Source of the DNA: a virus
Direction: 5' to 3' (one strand)
IMG/VR virus record: IMGVR_UViG_3300022746_000019
Location: 26,008 to 90,007 of that record
DNA: 64,000 nt
The position numbers and the translations under genes were made by a program. Shown here piece after piece: positions 3,036-60,968 of this stretch. Below the pieces are notes generated by a model. The model searched no databases, was not told the DNA's origin, and saw only the letters and a list, made by a program, of their open reading frames with translations. Every line of letters starts with the position of its first letter. Position 1 is the stretch's first letter.

Positions 3036-3974
3036 TTAGTGGGTTCGGTACTGGGATGCAGCGCGGCGAATCAGCGTGGCTGCGTCGGGGAGTTCCACCC
3101 CGTACAAGGAAACATCAGACTCTTTCTGAGCCTTCTTTACCAAGTCTTTAAGGGACTTCATAGCCTGGACAGTTCCAGACGCCTTACCACTCTGCCACCT
3201 GAAATTGGCAAAGTCGGAGTAACCGGCACCTTTAGGGCTGAATGCTTGGGTCCGACCTCCGTGAATTTCCTCAAACAATGCCGCGCCCTGTTTGGCGGCC
3301 AGCAACAGGGCTGTCTGGGCGTTACTGGTAGTGATTGCATCACGCGCCATGGTCAAATCATTAAGGGCTTGCTGGTAACGGGAAACGATGTCCTGCGCCA
3401 TTCTGGCGTCACGGTTTGCCTCAGAAAACCAATGCTCAGGGAATTTGGTCTCGTCTGCCGTTGGCTCTACGGTCCAATCGTCACGCGTCAGGGAGTACGC
3501 GGCGTAGGGCTTGATAGTTACAATATCGCTGGCGGTATTGACAAAAAATGTCAACTCAAACGCGCCCATGAACTCTTCGGTGGTGGGGTGAACATCCTCG
3601 CGAAACGCTTCGTTCATCATGTCGGCAATCTCTTTGTCAGACATACCAAAGTAACGGGTGTTTGCTTCGCGAAACGCTACGAAATTAACCCCTACCAGAC
3701 AATCCAAGTCTCCGGGCGAACGATGAGCAGTCCACTGGTACGAAACGCCCGATCCAGCCAACCATACGGTAGTCCAAGACTCTGGGCTGGAGTAATACTG
3801 GTTTAGGTGGCCGTACAAAACGCCTAGGACAGCGTTGCGAACAGACGGAATAAGTTTGGAGCCCCGGAACAGACGCGGGTCCAACATCAACGCTGGCGCT
3901 GAAAAGTAGGATGTCTGCGACTCTACAATCTGTACCGGGGAAGCCTGCGACCTCAGGGCTTCATAAAGGTCCAC
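3036..3974 (-). CDS. Nucleotidyltransferase-like protein
   Basis: A 312-residue protein. AGSGVSYQWTAHRSPGDLDC near residues 73-92 carries the nucleotidyltransferase-fold pattern: GS followed, after a helix, by an acidic DxD (DLD). Such proteins move a nucleotide from an NTP to a small molecule, nucleic acid or protein; the target cannot be told from sequence. Toward the C-terminus it becomes helical, with QALNDLTMAR and LVKKAQKESD. The start is GTG, overlapping the upstream TAG by one base (TAGTG). Homologues with the same motif occur in actinobacterial phages, as I remember the family. An antitoxin or toxin role is possible but unsupported. Confidence 0.65.
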   Translation of the reverse strand: MDLYEALRSQASPVQIVESQTSYFSAPALMLDPRLFRGSKLIPSVRNAVLGVLYGHLNQYYSSPESWTTVWLAGSGVSYQWTAHRSPGDLDCLVGVNFVAFREANTRYFGMSDKEIADMMNEAFREDVHPTTEEFMGAFELTFFVNTASDIVTIKPYAAYSLTRDDWTVEPTADETKFPEHWFSEANRDARMAQDIVSRYQQALNDLTMARDAITTSNAQTALLLAAKQGAALFEEIHGGRTQAFSPKGAGYSDFANFRWQSGKASGTVQAMKSLKDLVKKAQKESDVSLYGVELPDAATLIRRAASQYRTH

Positions 3975-4171
3975 TAGTTATCTCCGTCTTTGAGCGGCAT
4001 TTTTACAGTCTTCGTGCTTCGCCGTTCTTCAGTGACTAACGGGGCCATGAAGCCGTGTTGGGCGTGCGCGTCGGCAAACCGTTGCGCCCACAGCAACAGC
4101 AAATTATCTGAGGCATCTGGGAGGTCAAGTTGCAAATCTGCGCCGCAGGTGCAAGTCATCGTGATAAGCAT
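3974..4171 (-). CDS. Hypothetical protein, 65 aa
   Basis: It starts MLITMTCTCGADLQLDL, with a C-x-C pair close to the N-terminus, and ends in a basic and charged tail (RRSTKTVKMPLKDGDN). Nothing identifies a function. It lies 25 bases downstream of the 177-aa gene, and its TAG overlaps the GTG of the nucleotidyltransferase-like gene, so the genes form one operon. Confidence 0.6.
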   Translation of the reverse strand: MLITMTCTCGADLQLDLPDASDNLLLLWAQRFADAHAQHGFMAPLVTEERRSTKTVKMPLKDGDN

Positions 4172-4196
4172 TGGTCCTCCTATACCCTAGTTTACT

Positions 4197-4730
4197 CTAG
4201 TTATACAGGCCTTTTGCTTTGAAGGCCAGCTTCTGCTTTGCGCTCTTAACTGGGCAAAAATCGCACAGGTAGACTTGCGGGGAACGGGAGCTTCCGAGAC
4301 CGGCATCTCTGCGTTCCTTGTCGGTTCCGGGCTTCAACAACTTTCGATCATGCTTGTAATCGCCACAATCTAACGTTCGATTGTGCAATTTCCAACAAGT
4401 CATGGCGTCTTCGCCAAATTGGGATTTGGTGTTGTAGTAATTGGTTCCGAATACGTCAAGACCAGCGGATCCGCCCTCGCGAATCTGCGCCATGATGGAC
4501 TCTTTGACATCGGGACGCGCCCAGTACTTGACGGGAAACTTGTACAACTGTCCGAGGTGGGGCTCAGGGTTTTGATGACGCTCTACGGTAAGCTGTAGCA
4601 AGACATCGTCAGCTGGGCTGCCGTCCCAATCGGGAAGTTCTTCTGCCGATTTGCATGTACGGCAAACAAGGAGCCGAATCTGCGGCTCCGTGCGTTCCTG
4701 TACGGCGAGGTCTTTCGGGTCTACTGCCAT
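4197..4730 (-). CDS. Hypothetical zinc-binding protein, 177 aa
   Basis: There are two clear cysteine pairs: LLVCRTCKSAEELPDWDG near residue 23, which looks like the start of a zinc ribbon, and YLCDFCPVKS near 154. Two further cysteines (TCWKLHNRTLDCGDY) lie around 111-122. This is a recurring actinophage-type protein of unknown role; the paired CxxC units suggest structural zinc. It is followed 25 bases later by the 65-aa gene. Confidence 0.7.
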   Translation of the reverse strand: MAVDPKDLAVQERTEPQIRLLVCRTCKSAEELPDWDGSPADDVLLQLTVERHQNPEPHLGQLYKFPVKYWARPDVKESIMAQIREGGSAGLDVFGTNYYNTKSQFGEDAMTCWKLHNRTLDCGDYKHDRKLLKPGTDKERRDAGLGSSRSPQVYLCDFCPVKSAKQKLAFKAKGLYN

Positions 4731-52714: not shown

Positions 52715-53929
52715 CTACGCATACGTGTAGATCGAACTTGGAACGGACCCACTGGTCGGCGTGTAGGTGTTGGCAGCCCAACCAAAGGCAGACAGTACGT
52801 TACTCAGAACATAAGTTGATGCTCCGCTAAATGACGGGGTTTGGTCTGTCACGGTGTAGCCCGTGAAAGCGCTGTACGTCAGCGTGGTTCCGCCAAAGGA
52901 AACCGTACCGAATGTAGTCCCTGCCGGCTTCGATTTCGTTGTCAGGGTCGCGTAGTTGGAGATTACATCGCCCGTGGACGTGACCCCGACGGACGTGTAG
53001 CCGCCAGTAGCCGGGCTGAATACGTATGAGTTAGCCCATTGAACCACGCCAGATGTGTTCAATTTGAAAAGCGCGGATTCCCCAGATTTTGACAGTGGAA
53101 CAACATATGTGTTTCCAGATGAGTCAACTCCCAGTCCAGCACTGTACCCGGTCACATAGGTTGCCTTGGCAAATCGCTTTGACCATGCGACCGTTCGCGA
53201 GGTGCCAACCTTGGTTACGTCAGCATTGTTTTGAAGGTAGAGATTTCCGGAGGGATCAACAGCCATGGCGTAGACGGCCCCAGTACAAGAGTATTGATTT
53301 ACCAACGTGTTGCCCGTAGATGAAACCAGCAGTACCGCGCTACCCACACCAAGAACGCCTGACACCCACGCGTTCCCGCTTCCGTCGGCTACCACGCTAG
53401 TAGCCAAGCCGGTTCCGGCAGTTACTGCTGTTTGCAGTGATCCGTCGCTCTTAAGAACTGTGATGATGTACCAAGAGTCGGAATCTTTTGCGTCAACCGC
53501 ATGGTGGTTTGCCGTCACAATCAGTTTTGTAGACGACAGGTTCTCGACTCTAGGTCCGTACAAAGTAGAAGATGCGGCGTTGATAATGCTCGTGGTCTTC
53601 TTGGACCACTGCAGGGCTCCACTATGATTAAACATGGCCACGTACAGCATCGCTCCATCAGTGCCGACCACATACACGCCATTGGCGTCAGCAACTGCAG
53701 CCGTCGGGGCAAAGTTTGTGCTCTTTGACCACACGATTGCCCCGTCTTTACCCATCTTGACGAGGGTGTTTGAGCCGGTTACAGGCAGGTAATGATTGCC
53801 TGAAGAATCTTCCGCTGCGCCGACTCTAGCAACTGATGCCCGCATTGAATACGCCGCAAAATACTTGTTTGCAACAGCAGCAGTCGCCGCCTTAACGCTG
53901 CCGATAATCCCACCAAGAACGCCACTCAT
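52715..53929 (-). CDS. Beta-propeller-like structural protein
   Basis: A 404-residue protein with repeating blade-like units: DSSGNHYLPVTGSNTLVKMG, DANGVYVVGTDGAMLYVAMF, DGSGNAWVSGVLGVGSAVLL, DPSGNLYLQNNADVTKVGTS, DSSGNTYVVPLSKSGESALF. The 'D.SGN.Y....' motif at about 40-60-residue intervals is the SBBP/NHL-type propeller. A hydrophobic N-terminal helix (GVLGGIIGSVKAATAAVANK) may anchor it. It likely sits at the fibre tip and binds host polymers. The end (SFSGASTYVLSNVLSAFGWA) differs from the blades. Confidence 0.75.
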   Translation of the reverse strand: MSGVLGGIIGSVKAATAAVANKYFAAYSMRASVARVGAAEDSSGNHYLPVTGSNTLVKMGKDGAIVWSKSTNFAPTAAVADANGVYVVGTDGAMLYVAMFNHSGALQWSKKTTSIINAASSTLYGPRVENLSSTKLIVTANHHAVDAKDSDSWYIITVLKSDGSLQTAVTAGTGLATSVVADGSGNAWVSGVLGVGSAVLLVSSTGNTLVNQYSCTGAVYAMAVDPSGNLYLQNNADVTKVGTSRTVAWSKRFAKATYVTGYSAGLGVDSSGNTYVVPLSKSGESALFKLNTSGVVQWANSYVFSPATGGYTSVGVTSTGDVISNYATLTTKSKPAGTTFGTVSFGGTTLTYSAFTGYTVTDQTPSFSGASTYVLSNVLSAFGWAANTYTPTSGSVPSSIYTYA

Positions 53930-56900
53930 TAGGTCAGCCCGTTGCCGCTAATCATCCAAGAAGTGGAGGTGATCTTTACTGCAGTGGCCATGCCGTAGGG
54001 AGCCAACGTCCGAGATCCGGTGGTACCAGCGCCGGCTAGATACATCGTGTCGGTAGTGATGGCGATTGTCATGGTCGCTCCCGCGCCTGCAATGAAAGTA
54101 AGAGTGGTTCCCACCGGAAGAGCAAGGTTTGCATTGGAGTCAATAGTGACGGTGCGGGTCGCAGAAGCGTAGATGTGCTTTCCGGCGTCCGCCGCAACCA
54201 CGGTGTACGCGCCTGTTGTGGTCGAATTCTGCGGAAGTCCAAGGAAGCCAACCCCGTTTGCCGCCGTCGCTGTGGTGCCGCCGTTGGCCAACACGCTGGG
54301 GCCGATTGTCAGGGTGTCTGTTCCGGTCTGATCGATGTTGTCGAACAGGCCCTCTTCAACACCAGATGCTCCTGCACGGACGACGAGTTTGAGTGTGCCA
54401 GCGGTAGTGCCGTCACGGAAATAGAGTTTGGCAACGCCAGCACCGGGATTTGCTGCCGCCGCTGTCTGTTTCGTCAGGCGCACCTGACCGCCACTGTTCT
54501 CCTCAAACAACCGTCCGTATTGGTTGAATGTGTTGAACTGCGGTGATGTGAAGGAGCCTGCGCTGTCGACCTTGGCGAGCACTGTGCCAGTGGAATCGTG
54601 CCACTCTGTGAGATTCGCACTCTGCGATGCAAAGCCCTTGATGATTGAACCAATAGTGGTTGCGCTAGGTGCCTGAACGGCGAACCGCGTGGTGCTTATG
54701 TATCCCGAGTTGGCATACAGGCCGTTGCCAGCAGCAACATACGCATGGCCGTTGTTGTCAACAAACACAGTGTTTGTGCCAGCACCAGTCTGCACTGCAA
54801 GAATGTTGTTTACCTGACTGGCCGCACCACGAATAACCAGCGTCGGAGTAGCAGCAGACCGCGAAACAATCGAAGCCTGCGGGTAGGTGTATTGCGAACC
54901 TGCAACCGTCTGTGCGCCAGTAGTTGTATTGGCATACGAATACGAAGTTGATGTTGGTACTGCCGTGATTACATAGGTACCGTTGTAACCTGTCGGCGTT
55001 ACACCAGTGACGGTAACGAGGTCGCCTACTGCAAGGCCGTGTGCGACTGTCGTGGTGATTGTTGCGACGGTGCCTGTGCCAGAAGCTGCAGTCGTTGCAC
55101 CACCAACATACGCTTGAAGGGGTGTGGTTCCGCCGCTGTAAATCTGGGCATTGGCGGTGCGTCCACCGATGACAGTGCCAGCAGATGATTGATACTGAGC
55201 CAAGTCGCCGTACTGACCAGAGAACCCAACCTTTAGACCGAGTGCAATCTGCGTGGCTGACTGAGTAGTTGAAGTAATCGCTGCGAAAGCGGTAGAGCCG
55301 TAAGTAAAGCGACCAGCAGAATCTACGCTTGACAGCACCGTGCCGCTGTTGTTTGTCCACTGTTGGATGTCTGCCGTCTGAGATGCGGCAGCACGCAGAA
55401 TCCCTGTGACCTGAGTCGCGGTGGTACTGGAAGCGAAGAAGATTGATGCGCCGTTTACCGCATTAGCACCGACCGTGAGCCTGCCGCTAAAGGCTGCTTG
55501 ACCAGAGGCATTGATGAGACTGAGCACCGCGCCGCTGGAGTCCTGCCACTGAGTGAGGTCGGCCGTTTGAGATGCAGCAGCCTTGACGATGATGCCAACA
55601 CGGCTCACGTTATTGGTGGATGCAAAGAGCGATGCCGTGCTGGGATTGCCCGCAGGGGTACGCAAGTACAAAGAGCCGTCATTGCCGAAGCCGCTCAATA
55701 CGTTTCCGGCAATCTGACGAATGGAAAGAATGTCAACCGTATGACCGCTAACGCCAGACACTATGAGCGGAGTAACCGAAGTGCTTTGCGCGGTAATCGT
55801 GTGACCGCCAACCGTGAACGCATTAGCCGAACCCAACAACGCCAAACCAGTCGTCGGATGCACATGGTCAGCACGCGACACTTCGCCAGCCACACCAGCC
55901 GAAGCCGTACCAAGCGCGGACGGGCTAGACGAGCCATAGATAGACGAAGCCAACTTGGCGACAGTCACCGTGCCATCAGTCGGTGTGCGCGTATCAGACA
56001 GGCGCGAGTCGGTGGTGATGACAGCCGTGCCGGTCACCTGAGACGGGGCAACCGTCAATGCTGTCTGGTCAATGCCAATCGTCACATCACCCGACGTGCC
56101 GCCACCCGTAATCGGCGCGGACACATTCACCGACGTAATATCGCCAACCGTTGGGGTTGCCCACTTCACACCAGCCGACTGTGACGAATCTGCCGTCAAC
56201 ACCTGACCGTCAGTGCCCACATGGACGTTCTGCCACACCGACCCGTCACGGGCCAACAGATCACCCTTAGCCACCGACGTGATAGCCACATCATGCAGCT
56301 CATCCAACTCGTAGCCATTTTGCGGCGTAACAAAAATCAGACCATTGCCGGCATTGGCACGAAGGCACACACCGACAAACACCATGTGATTCGGCGCGGA
56401 CGGCTTCACATTCGTCATGCCACCCGGTGTAGCCGACAACCACAAAATGTCGCCAGGTGCATACGCCGACGTATTCACCTTCGACACCACACCACGGTTC
56501 ATCACAAACCCTGTGCCATTAGCCGTAATAGCCTCAGCAACAATGCCGAACGTCTTGGAAGAAGTCGCGTCAGAAGTATTGTAGGCACGCTTCACAGTCG
56601 GACGATCACCCTGCGCCCCATACAGGTACACAACTTCGCCCACATTCAACGTCGTCGATTCGGCATTAGTCACATACGTGATAACTTCCTGACCCAAAGC
56701 AATCGTCACATTGCCGCCACCAAGGCCAAGGTTCAGGGTTTGCTGACCATCCCAATACAATTTCGCAGCTGCCGACACCTGCGACGACAACGTGTCAAAG
56801 TTGATGGCACCAATACTGAAAGACTGGCTGGCATCACGCTGCACCACATAGTTTGCCATATCGGCAGAAGAAGCGTTGATGCCAATTACGGCGCTAGTTG

Positions 56901-57747
56901 GCGTACCAGTATTAGTGATAGGACCAGTAACGCCAACTACACCAGAAGACCCCGTAGGTCCGGCAGCGCCCGTTGCTCCTACGGGTCCCGTGGGACCCAT
57001 AGGGCCAGTCTCACCCGTAGCACCAGTGGGGCCAGTAACCGTTGAATCCGCGCCCGTTGCACCCGTAGGACCAGTAGGCCCTGTGGGGCCAACTTCTCCC
57101 TGAGGACCGGTAGGTCCAGTAGCGCCCGTAGGACCAGTCACACCTTGGATGCCTTGGGTGCCCGTAGGGCCAGTAGGACCAGTCGGTCCTGTGGGGCCCG
57201 TAGGTCCTGTTACGGTTGAATCCGCGCCAGTAGGTCCTACAGCACCTGTAGGACCTGTAGGACCCATGAGGCCCGTTGCTCCAGTGGGACCTGTAGGTCC
57301 TACAACACCTCTAGGCCCGGTCGGGCCTGTAGCTCCTGTAAGGCCATTTGGGCCTGTATGGCCAGTAGGACCTGTTGGTCCTGTAATGCCCTGTGCGCCA
57401 GTAGAGCCCGTAGGTCCTGTTGCTCCAGTAGGTCCAGTCTGCCCGCGGAGACCTTGCGGACCAGTAGCGCCGCGAGGACCCGTAGGTCCCGTGGGGCCAG
57501 TCACATTGGAAGCAGCGCCCGTCGGGCCGGTATCACCAATAGGTCCAGTCGGACCGACAGATCCTGTAGGTCCAGTGGGGCCAGTAGGGCCTTGCGCACC
57601 GCCTTGACCAGGTCCAATCTCAATGATGCTTGAGGGGGTGTCTGGTCCGGTTGGAGTGGTAATTGTGAGATTGATTGGTGCTACAGGCGTGACAACAATT
57701 GGTTCACACGTGCAAGGATTCGGGTTACATACGTTGCAACTAGTCAA
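53929..57747 (-). CDS. Long collagen-like tail fibre, 1272 aa
   Basis: The largest gene in the window. A short Cys-rich N-terminus ([20 protein letters not shown]) precedes a collagen block of about 230 residues with [10 protein letters not shown] repeats. Then domain [20 protein letters not shown] with [20 protein letters not shown], several near-identical beta modules ([20 protein letters not shown] and relatives), a [19 protein letters not shown] unit, and a terminal [20 protein letters not shown]. Four modules share the '[16 protein letters not shown]' pattern, so it grew by internal duplication. It is probably the major receptor-binding fibre. Confidence 0.85.
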
Positions 57748-58798: not shown

Positions 58799-58859
58799 GT
58801 ATTACTCCTTAGCCCACTATCGGGTCAATGATGCCCTAAAACAGGCAAAAAATCCGCCC

Positions 58860-58889
58860 AAACGAAAAGCGGCGGGGTATACCCGCCGC
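58860..58889 (-). terminator. Terminator after the head module
   Basis: GCGGCGGG and CCCGCCGC pair perfectly with a five-base loop (58869-58889), followed on the minus strand by TTTTCGTTT. It directly follows the stop of the 121-aa gene at 58903 and ends the head-gene transcript before the fibre module. The remaining bases up to 58798 hold the AAGGAG site of the next gene. Confidence 0.9.
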
Positions 58890-58902: not shown

Positions 58903-59268
58903 TTAGAGAGTGTTCGCCAAGTAACCCTTTGATGCAAGGTGGTTGGCAAGTTTGCGAGAAACTTCGTACTTCTTTCCCGCGATGAACGTGTAAAGGTTGC
59001 CCGCGCCATAGGTCATGGCTTCAATGGTCTCAACCGTACGGATAACGACGGTGTCGCTCTCAGCACCGACCTTGGTGGCCTGATCAACGACTACTGTCGT
59101 GGAGGCGGGGGAGGTAGCGTCAATGATTTCGTTTTCCTCGTCAATAATCGCCTGAGCGGTAGCGAGGGAAATTTCGTTTGCTCGCGCTTGAATCTGGTCG
59201 GCGTTCTGTGCCATCATTTCTTCGCGCTTACGCCCAGTGACGTCGCTGGGCTTTGCTTTTGTAGCCAT
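58903..59268 (-). CDS. Small structural protein, 121 aa
   Basis: An acidic helical N-terminus (VTGRKREEMMAQNADQIQAR; ATAQAIIDEENEIIDATSPA), then TVVIRTVETIEAMTYGAGNL YTFIAGKKYEVSRKLANHL. Basic end with a beta hairpin. Such proteins follow the capsid gene in many phages and may be head completion or decoration proteins. Not named further. Confidence 0.65.
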   Translation of the reverse strand: MATKAKPSDVTGRKREEMMAQNADQIQARANEISLATAQAIIDEENEIIDATSPASTTVVVDQATKVGAESDTVVIRTVETIEAMTYGAGNLYTFIAGKKYEVSRKLANHLASKGYLANTL

Positions 59269-59295: not shown

Positions 59296-59841
59296 TTAAA
59301 TTTTAGCAGACAGATATTCCGCTGCTTTTTTAAGAAGTTCGGGGGAATCCCTGAAGGCCCCTAAACCCCGATTGCATGGGTGGCACAAAAGGCCTCTCAC
59401 GCATTTGCCACAAGCTTTGCTGTCTGGGCAGCAAGAGTGGTCGTGGTCTACGCAAATTGATGTCCTACTGTGGGACAAGTCAACTTCGCATATGAGGCAC
59501 TTACCGTTCTGCATTTCAAGAAGCTCGTTGAACCTATCGACGGTTATGCCATATTTTTTAATTGTCTGTCGATTGCCATTGGCTTTGGCGCACTCCCGGC
59601 ACGTTCTTCGCCCTTGCGGGTTTATGTATGTGTTTTCCTGGGTGTAGCCATGCCCTTTAGGACAATGAGTTTTGGCTTTATTAAAGCCTCCTTGCCCAAG
59701 CCCCGGAGACGCCGCCCGTCGAATTCTCATTCGTTCTAGACGACATCTCCGGCAGTGCACGTATCCGTTTTTGTCTACGTAACTGTTTAAGTCATCATAA
59801 GGATGACCCTCGGGACATTTAGTTTTTTTAGGGCTAGTCAT
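59296..59841 (-). CDS. HNH endonuclease, endonuclease VII-like, with duplicated zinc arm
   Basis: A 181-residue mobile-type endonuclease. The core YGITVDRFNELLEMQNGKCL (about 97-116) with CLIC, SICVDHDHSC (132-135), GKCVRGLLCHPCNRGLGAFR and Asn157 is the T4 endonuclease VII family. Two N-terminal zinc modules in tandem (Cys9, His13, Cys30, Cys33; Cys60, His64, Cys81, Cys84) probably read DNA. It sits alone inside the head operon between capsid and 121-aa genes, with no role in head assembly: a freestanding homing-type insertion is likely. Its start is sequestered by a hairpin. Confidence 0.9.
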   Translation of the reverse strand: MTSPKKTKCPEGHPYDDLNSYVDKNGYVHCRRCRLERMRIRRAASPGLGQGGFNKAKTHCPKGHGYTQENTYINPQGRRTCRECAKANGNRQTIKKYGITVDRFNELLEMQNGKCLICEVDLSHSRTSICVDHDHSCCPDSKACGKCVRGLLCHPCNRGLGAFRDSPELLKKAAEYLSAKI

Positions 59842-59847
59842 CAGAAC

Positions 59848-59877
59848 CTCCTAAGCCGATTTTACCTGACTTAGGAG
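59848..59877 (-). promoter_or_regulatory. Hairpin sequestering the HNH gene's ribosome site
   Basis: CTCCTAAG (59848-59855) and CTTAGGAG (59870-59877) pair perfectly. On the minus strand the 3' arm is CTTAGGAG and includes the ribosome site (AGGAGG, five bases before the ATG at 59841). The 14-base loop contains GTAAAAT. In read-through transcripts from the capsid gene the site would be paired, so the nuclease would be silenced. A transcript starting inside the loop would not form the stem. Confidence 0.75.
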
Positions 59878-59900
59878 TGTTTCTGACTACAAACTAGTTC

Positions 59901-60968
59901 CTAATTGGTGCTGGCCACAATAACTGCCTGGTCGGTGATGAGACCAAGGCCGAAGATTGAGTACCAGGACAGGGCGTGCTCACGACCGAAGTCGAGGATG
60001 CCGCCGTCACGGAGTTCGACCGGCAGAGAGATTGCGTGGCCGAATGCGTTGTCACCGATGAAGAGAGCGTCGTAACGATCACGGTTACCGTTGCCTTCAA
60101 GGGTGGTCGGGGTGATGTAGCCACCGCCGGGGGTCACGGTCGGGGCGACCGAGTGGTCGGCGGTCCAGCCTGCACCTGCACCATTAGGAACCTTGCGTAC
60201 CTGAGTGGTTTCGATGAAGACGCAGTCGTACAGGCGGCCGATTTCACCGAGCATGAAGTTGCCGGGGGCGGCGTACTTCGTAACTTCGATGAATTCCGGA
60301 TTGTCGCGCAGACGACGGCTCTGGTGCGGGTGAACAAAAGCGACGTAAGTCTCGCCCAGACGCGGGATGTTCTTGAGGCTCAACTGTTCGACGGCGTCCT
60401 TGACGACGTGCGGGCTGAGGAAGAAGTCACCGGTCATTTCATCGTTACCAGCGGCAGAGGTGCCGTAGTCGTACCAGTTGTTGACACCGGACAGAGCGCC
60501 ACGCGATTCGCCCCAAATCTGCGAAGAAGCAGCGAGGAGGGTGTCGCGGGACAGAACGTCGAGGTAGGTAGCCATGTTGCGGCCGAGCAGACGCGAAGCC
60601 GAAGCCATGACGTCATCGAACGATGCGTTGAGCAGGAGCTCGGACACCGAGAGACCGTAACCGTGTTCGGTAACGGTGATGCTGAACTGCTGTGCAGTCA
60701 GCGCGTTGGTCTCCATACGAACACCTTCGACGAGCGCCGAAGCGTAGCCGAGGTTGTTGTAACGCATGAAGTTAATCTGAAGGCCGGGGGCGACGCCCAG
60801 TTCGGTCTTCTTGACTGCAAACTGCTCAAAGCGCAGAATCGGCATGGCCTGGAAAAGGATTTCCTTCGACCAGATCTGCTGAATTGCCTGAGTCAGCTGG
60901 GTATTGGTACCCGAGTATGCGGTAGGTGATGCGGCAAGATTGCCGGTACCGGTGATACCTGATGCCAT
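59901..60968 (-). CDS. Major capsid protein, N4-gp56 family
   Basis: A 355-residue protein. MASGITGTGNLAASPTAYSG, RFEQFAVKKTELGVAPGLQI, INFMRYNNLGYASALVEGVR, YVAFVHPHQSRRLRDNPEFI and GEIGRLYDCVFIETTQVRKV are the N4-gp56-family layout, an HK97-fold shell protein without a cleaved N-terminal delta domain. It is preceded by a separate scaffold. It forms the icosahedral shell. Confidence 0.92.
   Translation of the reverse strand: MASGITGTGNLAASPTAYSGTNTQLTQAIQQIWSKEILFQAMPILRFEQFAVKKTELGVAPGLQINFMRYNNLGYASALVEGVRMETNALTAQQFSITVTEHGYGLSVSELLLNASFDDVMASASRLLGRNMATYLDVLSRDTLLAASSQIWGESRGALSGVNNWYDYGTSAAGNDEMTGDFFLSPHVVKDAVEQLSLKNIPRLGETYVAFVHPHQSRRLRDNPEFIEVTKYAAPGNFMLGEIGRLYDCVFIETTQVRKVPNGAGAGWTADHSVAPTVTPGGGYITPTTLEGNGNRDRYDALFIGDNAFGHAISLPVELRDGGILDFGREHALSWYSIFGLGLITDQAVIVASTN

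Follow-up and report, generated by a model that had tools for sequence, protein, structure and literature searches.

A conserved hairpin predicted to mask the ribosome-binding site of a homing-endonuclease-like gene behind a phage capsid gene

Comparative folding shows that the HNH nuclease gene directly downstream of the major capsid gene is preceded by a conserved structure, tied to the HNH cassette at this site, that is predicted to hide the Shine-Dalgarno sequence (SD) of the nuclease gene on read-through RNA from the capsid gene. We consider it probable that this hairpin is a cis-acting translational brake of the HNH gene on the capsid read-through mRNA, complemented in most relatives, at the level of the family, by a putative internal promoter. 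The window, by which we mean the whole stretch of 64,000 nucleotides that was analysed, comes from a virus record of 90,007 bases, and the features relevant here are as follows.

59901..60968, minus strand: major capsid protein gene (phrog_1357, E=3e-60), directly upstream of the HNH gene
59870..59885, minus strand: 5′ arm of the hairpin, CAGAAACA + CTCCTAAG (anti-SD)
59856..59869, minus strand: loop TCAGGTAAAATCGG, containing TAAAAT (59864-59859), a -10-like word lacking both TG and -35
59842..59855, minus strand: 3′ arm CTTAGGAGGTTCTG, containing the SD AGGAGG (59852-59847), P(paired) 0.98
59296..59841, minus strand: HNH gene, 181 aa, two N-terminal Cys modules and a C-terminal Endonuclease VII domain (PF02945, E=4e-23)
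58903..59268, minus strand: next gene of the structural operon, 121 aa, directly after the capsid gene in HNH-less relatives
58854..58872, minus strand: terminator-like hairpin with T-rich tail, 3′ of the 121-aa gene

On the minus strand, the gene order runs from portal through a scaffold-like gene, the major capsid gene and the HNH gene to the 121-aa gene. The structural genes are similar to those of Streptomyces phages BRock, Alone3, GiJojo and pSt2308, and among the matches listed the capsid protein has relatives with up to 86% amino acid identity. The HNH protein matches the T4 Endo VII structure 1e7d (PDB, E=2.5e-9), and its Endonuclease VII domain occupies residues 93-178 of 181. The DHHRN motif is intact, with all elements of its published definition conserved (CX2-4C, DHDH, R, CX2C, N; PMC6083498) and with C115, C118, D132 H133 D134 H135, R149, C153, C156 and N157 invariant; the C-terminal position of the motif is that of the endonuclease clade, an N-terminal one that of the resolvase clade. 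No other Endo VII gene was found in the 90-kb record, and across related genomes the same gap between the capsid gene and the next gene is occupied or empty, so that presence of the HNH gene is sporadic. These sequence features suggest a free-standing, Endo VII-type, homing-endonuclease-like gene that was inserted immediately downstream of the major capsid gene. Elsewhere in the window (53929-57747), a 1272-aa protein in which GPTGPTG repeats form a long collagen-like region is encoded next to an LtfC-like gene.

The initial annotation had described a perfect 8-bp stem at the SD of the HNH gene with GTAAAAT in its loop, and both elements are real. The stem pairs CTCCTAAG (59877-59870) with CTTAGGAG (59855-59848) around a loop of 14 nt that holds GTAAAAT at 59865-59859, within the 59 nt that separate the capsid stop from the HNH start. 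It takes in AGGAG of the SD, which stands 5 nt ahead of the HNH ATG (59841-59839), and in an extension of the stem the last SD G, TTCTG and part of the AUG pair with upstream CAGAAAC. The sense RNA from the capsid stop to the HNH AUG folds with a minimum free energy (MFE) of -23.0 kcal/mol (z -4.6) and the plus strand of a 101-nt region with -31.2 kcal/mol (z -3.3), 0 of 200 shuffles being as stable in either case. With a predicted SD pairing probability of 0.98, the HNH start ranks first of the 49 SD-bearing gene starts in the window and is the only one at or above 0.9. Rfam contains no known RNA family for the hairpin, the best match being a chance snoRNA (E=0.35). A chance or low-complexity inverted repeat would be conceivable from the 8-bp stem alone, which is common enough in 64 kb and has other 8-bp repeats nearby, but the z score, the rank among starts and the conservation with compensatory changes leave this explanation hardly any credence, and comparison with relatives led us to reject it.

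Three HNH proteins and an HNH profile, used as queries, yielded 61 loci with an HNH gene after the capsid gene and in the same direction (overlapping records); these collapse into 23 distinct gaps and, at 70% identity, 11 HNH clusters. The HNH proteins of these relatives share 35-58% identity with that of the window, and in nearly all of the loci the SD lies inside the 3′ arm, often with a different sequence (L124, TTCTCCTAGTAGG...CCTGCTAGGAGG; L082, AAACCTCCTAAGCT...AGCTTAGGAGGTTT; L083, AATCCTCCC...GGGAGGATT; L198, GAGACTCCC...GGGAGTTTC; L197, TTCCCTAGTA...TACTAGGGAG; L136, CTCTTAGTAGG...CTACTAAGGGAG). Exceptions are L130, where the SD is covered only in part (0.67-0.68), L142/L204, where the hairpin is present and a good SD absent, and L193 and L209, which have no comparable SD hairpin. 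All 17 HNH leaders that were folded are more stable than 200 of 200 dinucleotide shuffles, and the SD pairing probability averages 0.96 in 18 distinct HNH starts versus 0.43 in 54 distinct next-gene starts (Mann-Whitney p=1.5e-10). The distance from hairpin end to start codon in whole-gap folds was discarded as an uninformative measure, because weak outer pairs dominate these folds. In L193 (2968-3000), TGATAACCT lies just ahead of GGGGGAATG and would give a leaderless message. HNH genes convergent to the capsid gene are found in L084, L089 and L199 (capsid end near 3400-3600); the last of these carries TTGACA and TGATACACT, and a 13-bp hairpin surrounds TGATACACT. In L140 (388-2801), the major capsid gene is in five pieces, and two insertions match group I introns (Rfam RF00028).

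Pairing is maintained in 96% of pairing cells of a 14-sequence alignment, versus 34-59% with the partner slid; both sides have changed in 4 pairs, and column 19-36 runs through the full series U-A, U.G and C-G. Adding the window and L082 contributes further exchanges (GC to AU, UA to GC). A hand-registered stem of 11 pairs comprises 143 Watson-Crick, 9 G.U, 1 A.C and 1 other cell, the last belonging to L059, in which the HNH gene is deleted. The predominance of G.U over A.C is consistent with the sense RNA, and not the DNA or the antisense strand, being the target of selection, and the stem register tracks the SD even where the sequence is wholly different (L083, L130, L198). Both observations tell against an element acting at the DNA level, in which the Endo VII-type nuclease would recognise the inverted repeat as a boundary, cruciform or operator. 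In favour of such an element, enzymes of the Endo VII family act on branched DNA, and the repeat accompanies the HNH cassette and occurs also in HNH-deleted remnants; we nevertheless hold it to be very improbable. Folding models, together with covariation, thus predict that the SD is sequestered by an RNA hairpin on read-through transcripts.

For the loop, the initial annotation had proposed a promoter as in T4 I-TevI. Such a switch in the window itself, with TAAAAT as -10 element giving a short unpaired mRNA, is conceivable but doubtful. TAAAAT matches TATAAT at 5 of 6 positions, and the candidate words are TGTTAAAAT in L082, at the same site as TAAAAT, TGATAAGAT in L124 and GGTAAAAT in the window; an extended -10 is, moreover, found in most HNH clusters (see below). 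Against this, the window word has neither a TG extension nor a -35, the promoter scan reported no sigma-70 promoter in the window's hairpin, and neither the core clade nor L135 or L136 has the word. In addition, a transcript beginning 7 nt downstream of TAAAAT would have its 5′ end within the SD, for which the predicted pairing after release is still 0.75. GTAAAAT was rejected as a phage-wide promoter word (5 occurrences versus 6.8 expected). T4-type late promoters have the consensus TATAAATA, which does not occur in the gap, and the 90-kb record, which may be a fragment, gave no match to Sigma70_r2 or Sigma70_r4, models that may miss gp55-like factors.

At the level of the family, the idea of an internal promoter fares better. 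Of 11 HNH clusters, 8 have the extended -10 motif TGNTANNNT in the gap or hairpin, versus 0 of 52 HNH-less gaps (14 of 17 distinct HNH gaps in the first set); shuffles of the same gaps predict 0.65 clusters and never reached 8 in a million draws, a comparison in which the motif was picked after inspecting the sequences and core members are related. The motif resides in the 5′ arm in the core clade, L130, L190, L197 and L210 and in the loop in L082, L083 and L198, and its usual placement is such that RNA initiated there would be devoid of the anti-SD arm. In the core clade, TAAGA of the motif also pairs with TCTTA, so that the motif is partly stem, and a start 7 nt downstream, which removes the anti-SD, lowers the predicted SD pairing from 0.99-1.00 to 0.17-0.78. 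The L124 word TGATAAGAT is retained in L135 and L190 despite a changed opposite arm. T7-like-looking contigs (L156:2508-2586 and equivalents in L157, L158, L159 and L168) carry Endo VII-like genes that directly follow a primase/helicase gene (L156, L168). These genes are preceded by TTGACA, 17 nt and TATAAT (or near); in their leaders the spacer forms the 5′ arm (CCTGAAAC) and the SD overlaps the 3′ arm (GTTTCAGGAGG), L157 being without the stem.

As a translational brake, the hairpin would operate on the capsid read-through mRNA, where pairing of the SD-containing 3′ arm with the 5′ arm would let ribosomes only seldom start the nuclease and so keep its output low on a very abundant, presumably late message. 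In most relatives, the extended -10 in the 5′ arm, loop or gap may give rise to a short, translatable transcript without the anti-SD arm and, in many, to a small separate supply of nuclease. The second promoter is probably weak or absent in the window, and nuclease expression there would therefore rely on leakiness of the hairpin. Of the I-TevI-like arrangement put forward initially, SD masking on read-through RNA is thus well supported by the comparison, whereas the loop promoter is weak in the window; silencing until late infection is a less natural reading than low output on the most abundant late message, since the upstream message is that of the capsid gene and presumably late, and the early-silence, late-release account from T4 need not apply.

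The relatives without the HNH gene bear on a further explanation, in which the hairpin mainly serves the 3′ end of the capsid message, as a terminator or as an element for mRNA stabilisation or processing, and overlaps the SD only as a result of the short gap. We examined the 80 closest capsid loci among the matches listed, a set biased to close relatives, in nearly all of which the capsid gene is followed directly by the 121-aa gene. Their 52 distinct gaps have a median MFE of -25 kcal/mol (43 below -10, nine weaker), and most contain a GC-rich hairpin after the capsid gene that sits apart from the next SD. The suggestion that HNH-less relatives would also lack the hairpin is accordingly borne out for this hairpin, but mostly another one follows the capsid gene. 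HNH-bearing loci have lost this GC hairpin; the SD hairpin is their sole post-capsid hairpin, located in the capsid-HNH gap (median -30.6), with none 3′ of the HNH gene (median -1.5). In L024 (4068-5000; also L025), the insertion behind the capsid gene is of another kind: its ORF begins like a signal peptide and has, by eye, an apparent PA14-like region.

This distribution favours a role at the capsid 3′ end, as does L180, which has lost the HNH gene and has no GC hairpin but retains the SD hairpin intact; L082 alone has a U6 tract after the stem. On the other side, HNH-less hairpins spare the next SD (0 of 54 starts at or above 0.8) while HNH hairpins nearly always cover it, and in the window the hairpin has no U tract and is absent from the list of terminator-like structures, which tells against an intrinsic terminator (a GC stem followed by a U tract). 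A mainly 3′ end function is a tentative reading that we rate below even likelihood, and it is compatible with SD masking: neither role rules out the other. In the HNH deletion remnants of L059/L060 (near 4068-4250) and L180 (6257-6420), located between the capsid gene and the next gene, the hairpin persists together with the start codon and some 10 codons, which indicates that the hairpin may have another job; in L059/L060, a GC hairpin lies downstream and the SD stem has a mismatch. It is possible, though rather unlikely, that the regulatory hairpin of the HNH gene has replaced the capsid gene's own 3′ hairpin and does both jobs, ending or protecting the capsid message and masking the nuclease start. 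This second job is a lead drawn from two cases (L180; L059/L060); if true, a brake with a double role would be tied to an essential host gene, and the hairpin would outlive loss of the nuclease, as in L180.

A translational brake of this kind has counterparts in T4-type phages. For I-TevI, I-TevII and I-TevIII, a hairpin hides the ribosome-binding site (RBS) and a short transcript from an internal promoter frees it (PMC2988022); these nucleases are encoded in introns of early/middle genes and have an early-to-late timing switch, and intron splicing is also protected, in all of which they differ from the window. The same source describes this layout at I-TevI/II/III, segB and Aeh1 mobE, and its section 12 covers Aeh1 mobE and T4 segB as free-standing genes for homing endonucleases, the RBS being sequestered by an RNA hairpin; for this group, a promoter overlapping the hairpin is reported. 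Like them, the nuclease gene of the window stands free between two genes of a phage operon, with the SD in the 3′ arm on read-through RNA. mobE and segB, however, belong to T4-type phages with T4 late promoters, whereas the window family has a Streptomyces-phage-like structural operon with a capsid message, an Endo VII/DHHRN enzyme and extended -10 motifs. Judged by sequence, the promoter layout of the family would reproduce the I-TevI/segB/mobE geometry in phages outside the T4 group, on the late message of a capsid gene; the window itself resembles the T4-type systems by its anatomy, lacks the T4 late promoter, and would share their repression by analogy.

Masking of the SD and/or AUG in an mRNA helix is likewise described for T4 e, soc and gene 49 (PMC3014915). 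Gene 49, endonuclease VII, gives the nuclease domain its name and has a masked SD, but it is a resolvase with an N-terminal catalytic domain and is no optional insertion. F-CphI, a DHHRN (Endo VII-motif) homing endonuclease (PMC6083498), shares with the HNH protein the C-terminal Endo VII motif CX2C-DHDH-R-CX2C-N, a free-standing gene and a sporadic presence in related phages. It differs in its position beside psbA in a cyanophage and in its cooperation with an intron, and that paper makes no use of the word 'hairpin'.

T4-type phages are known to carry hairpins that mask the RBS of homing endonuclease genes (PMC2988022), and we met no case from other phages in the open-access papers searched. 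The same layout, with apparently re-made sequences, in a Streptomyces-phage-like capsid operon and with another family of nucleases suggests a convergent pressure that keeps selfish nuclease genes quiet on the strongest messages of their host. Several natural SD/anti-SD pairs, two HNH-deleted remnants and HNH-less alleles make this hypothesis testable.
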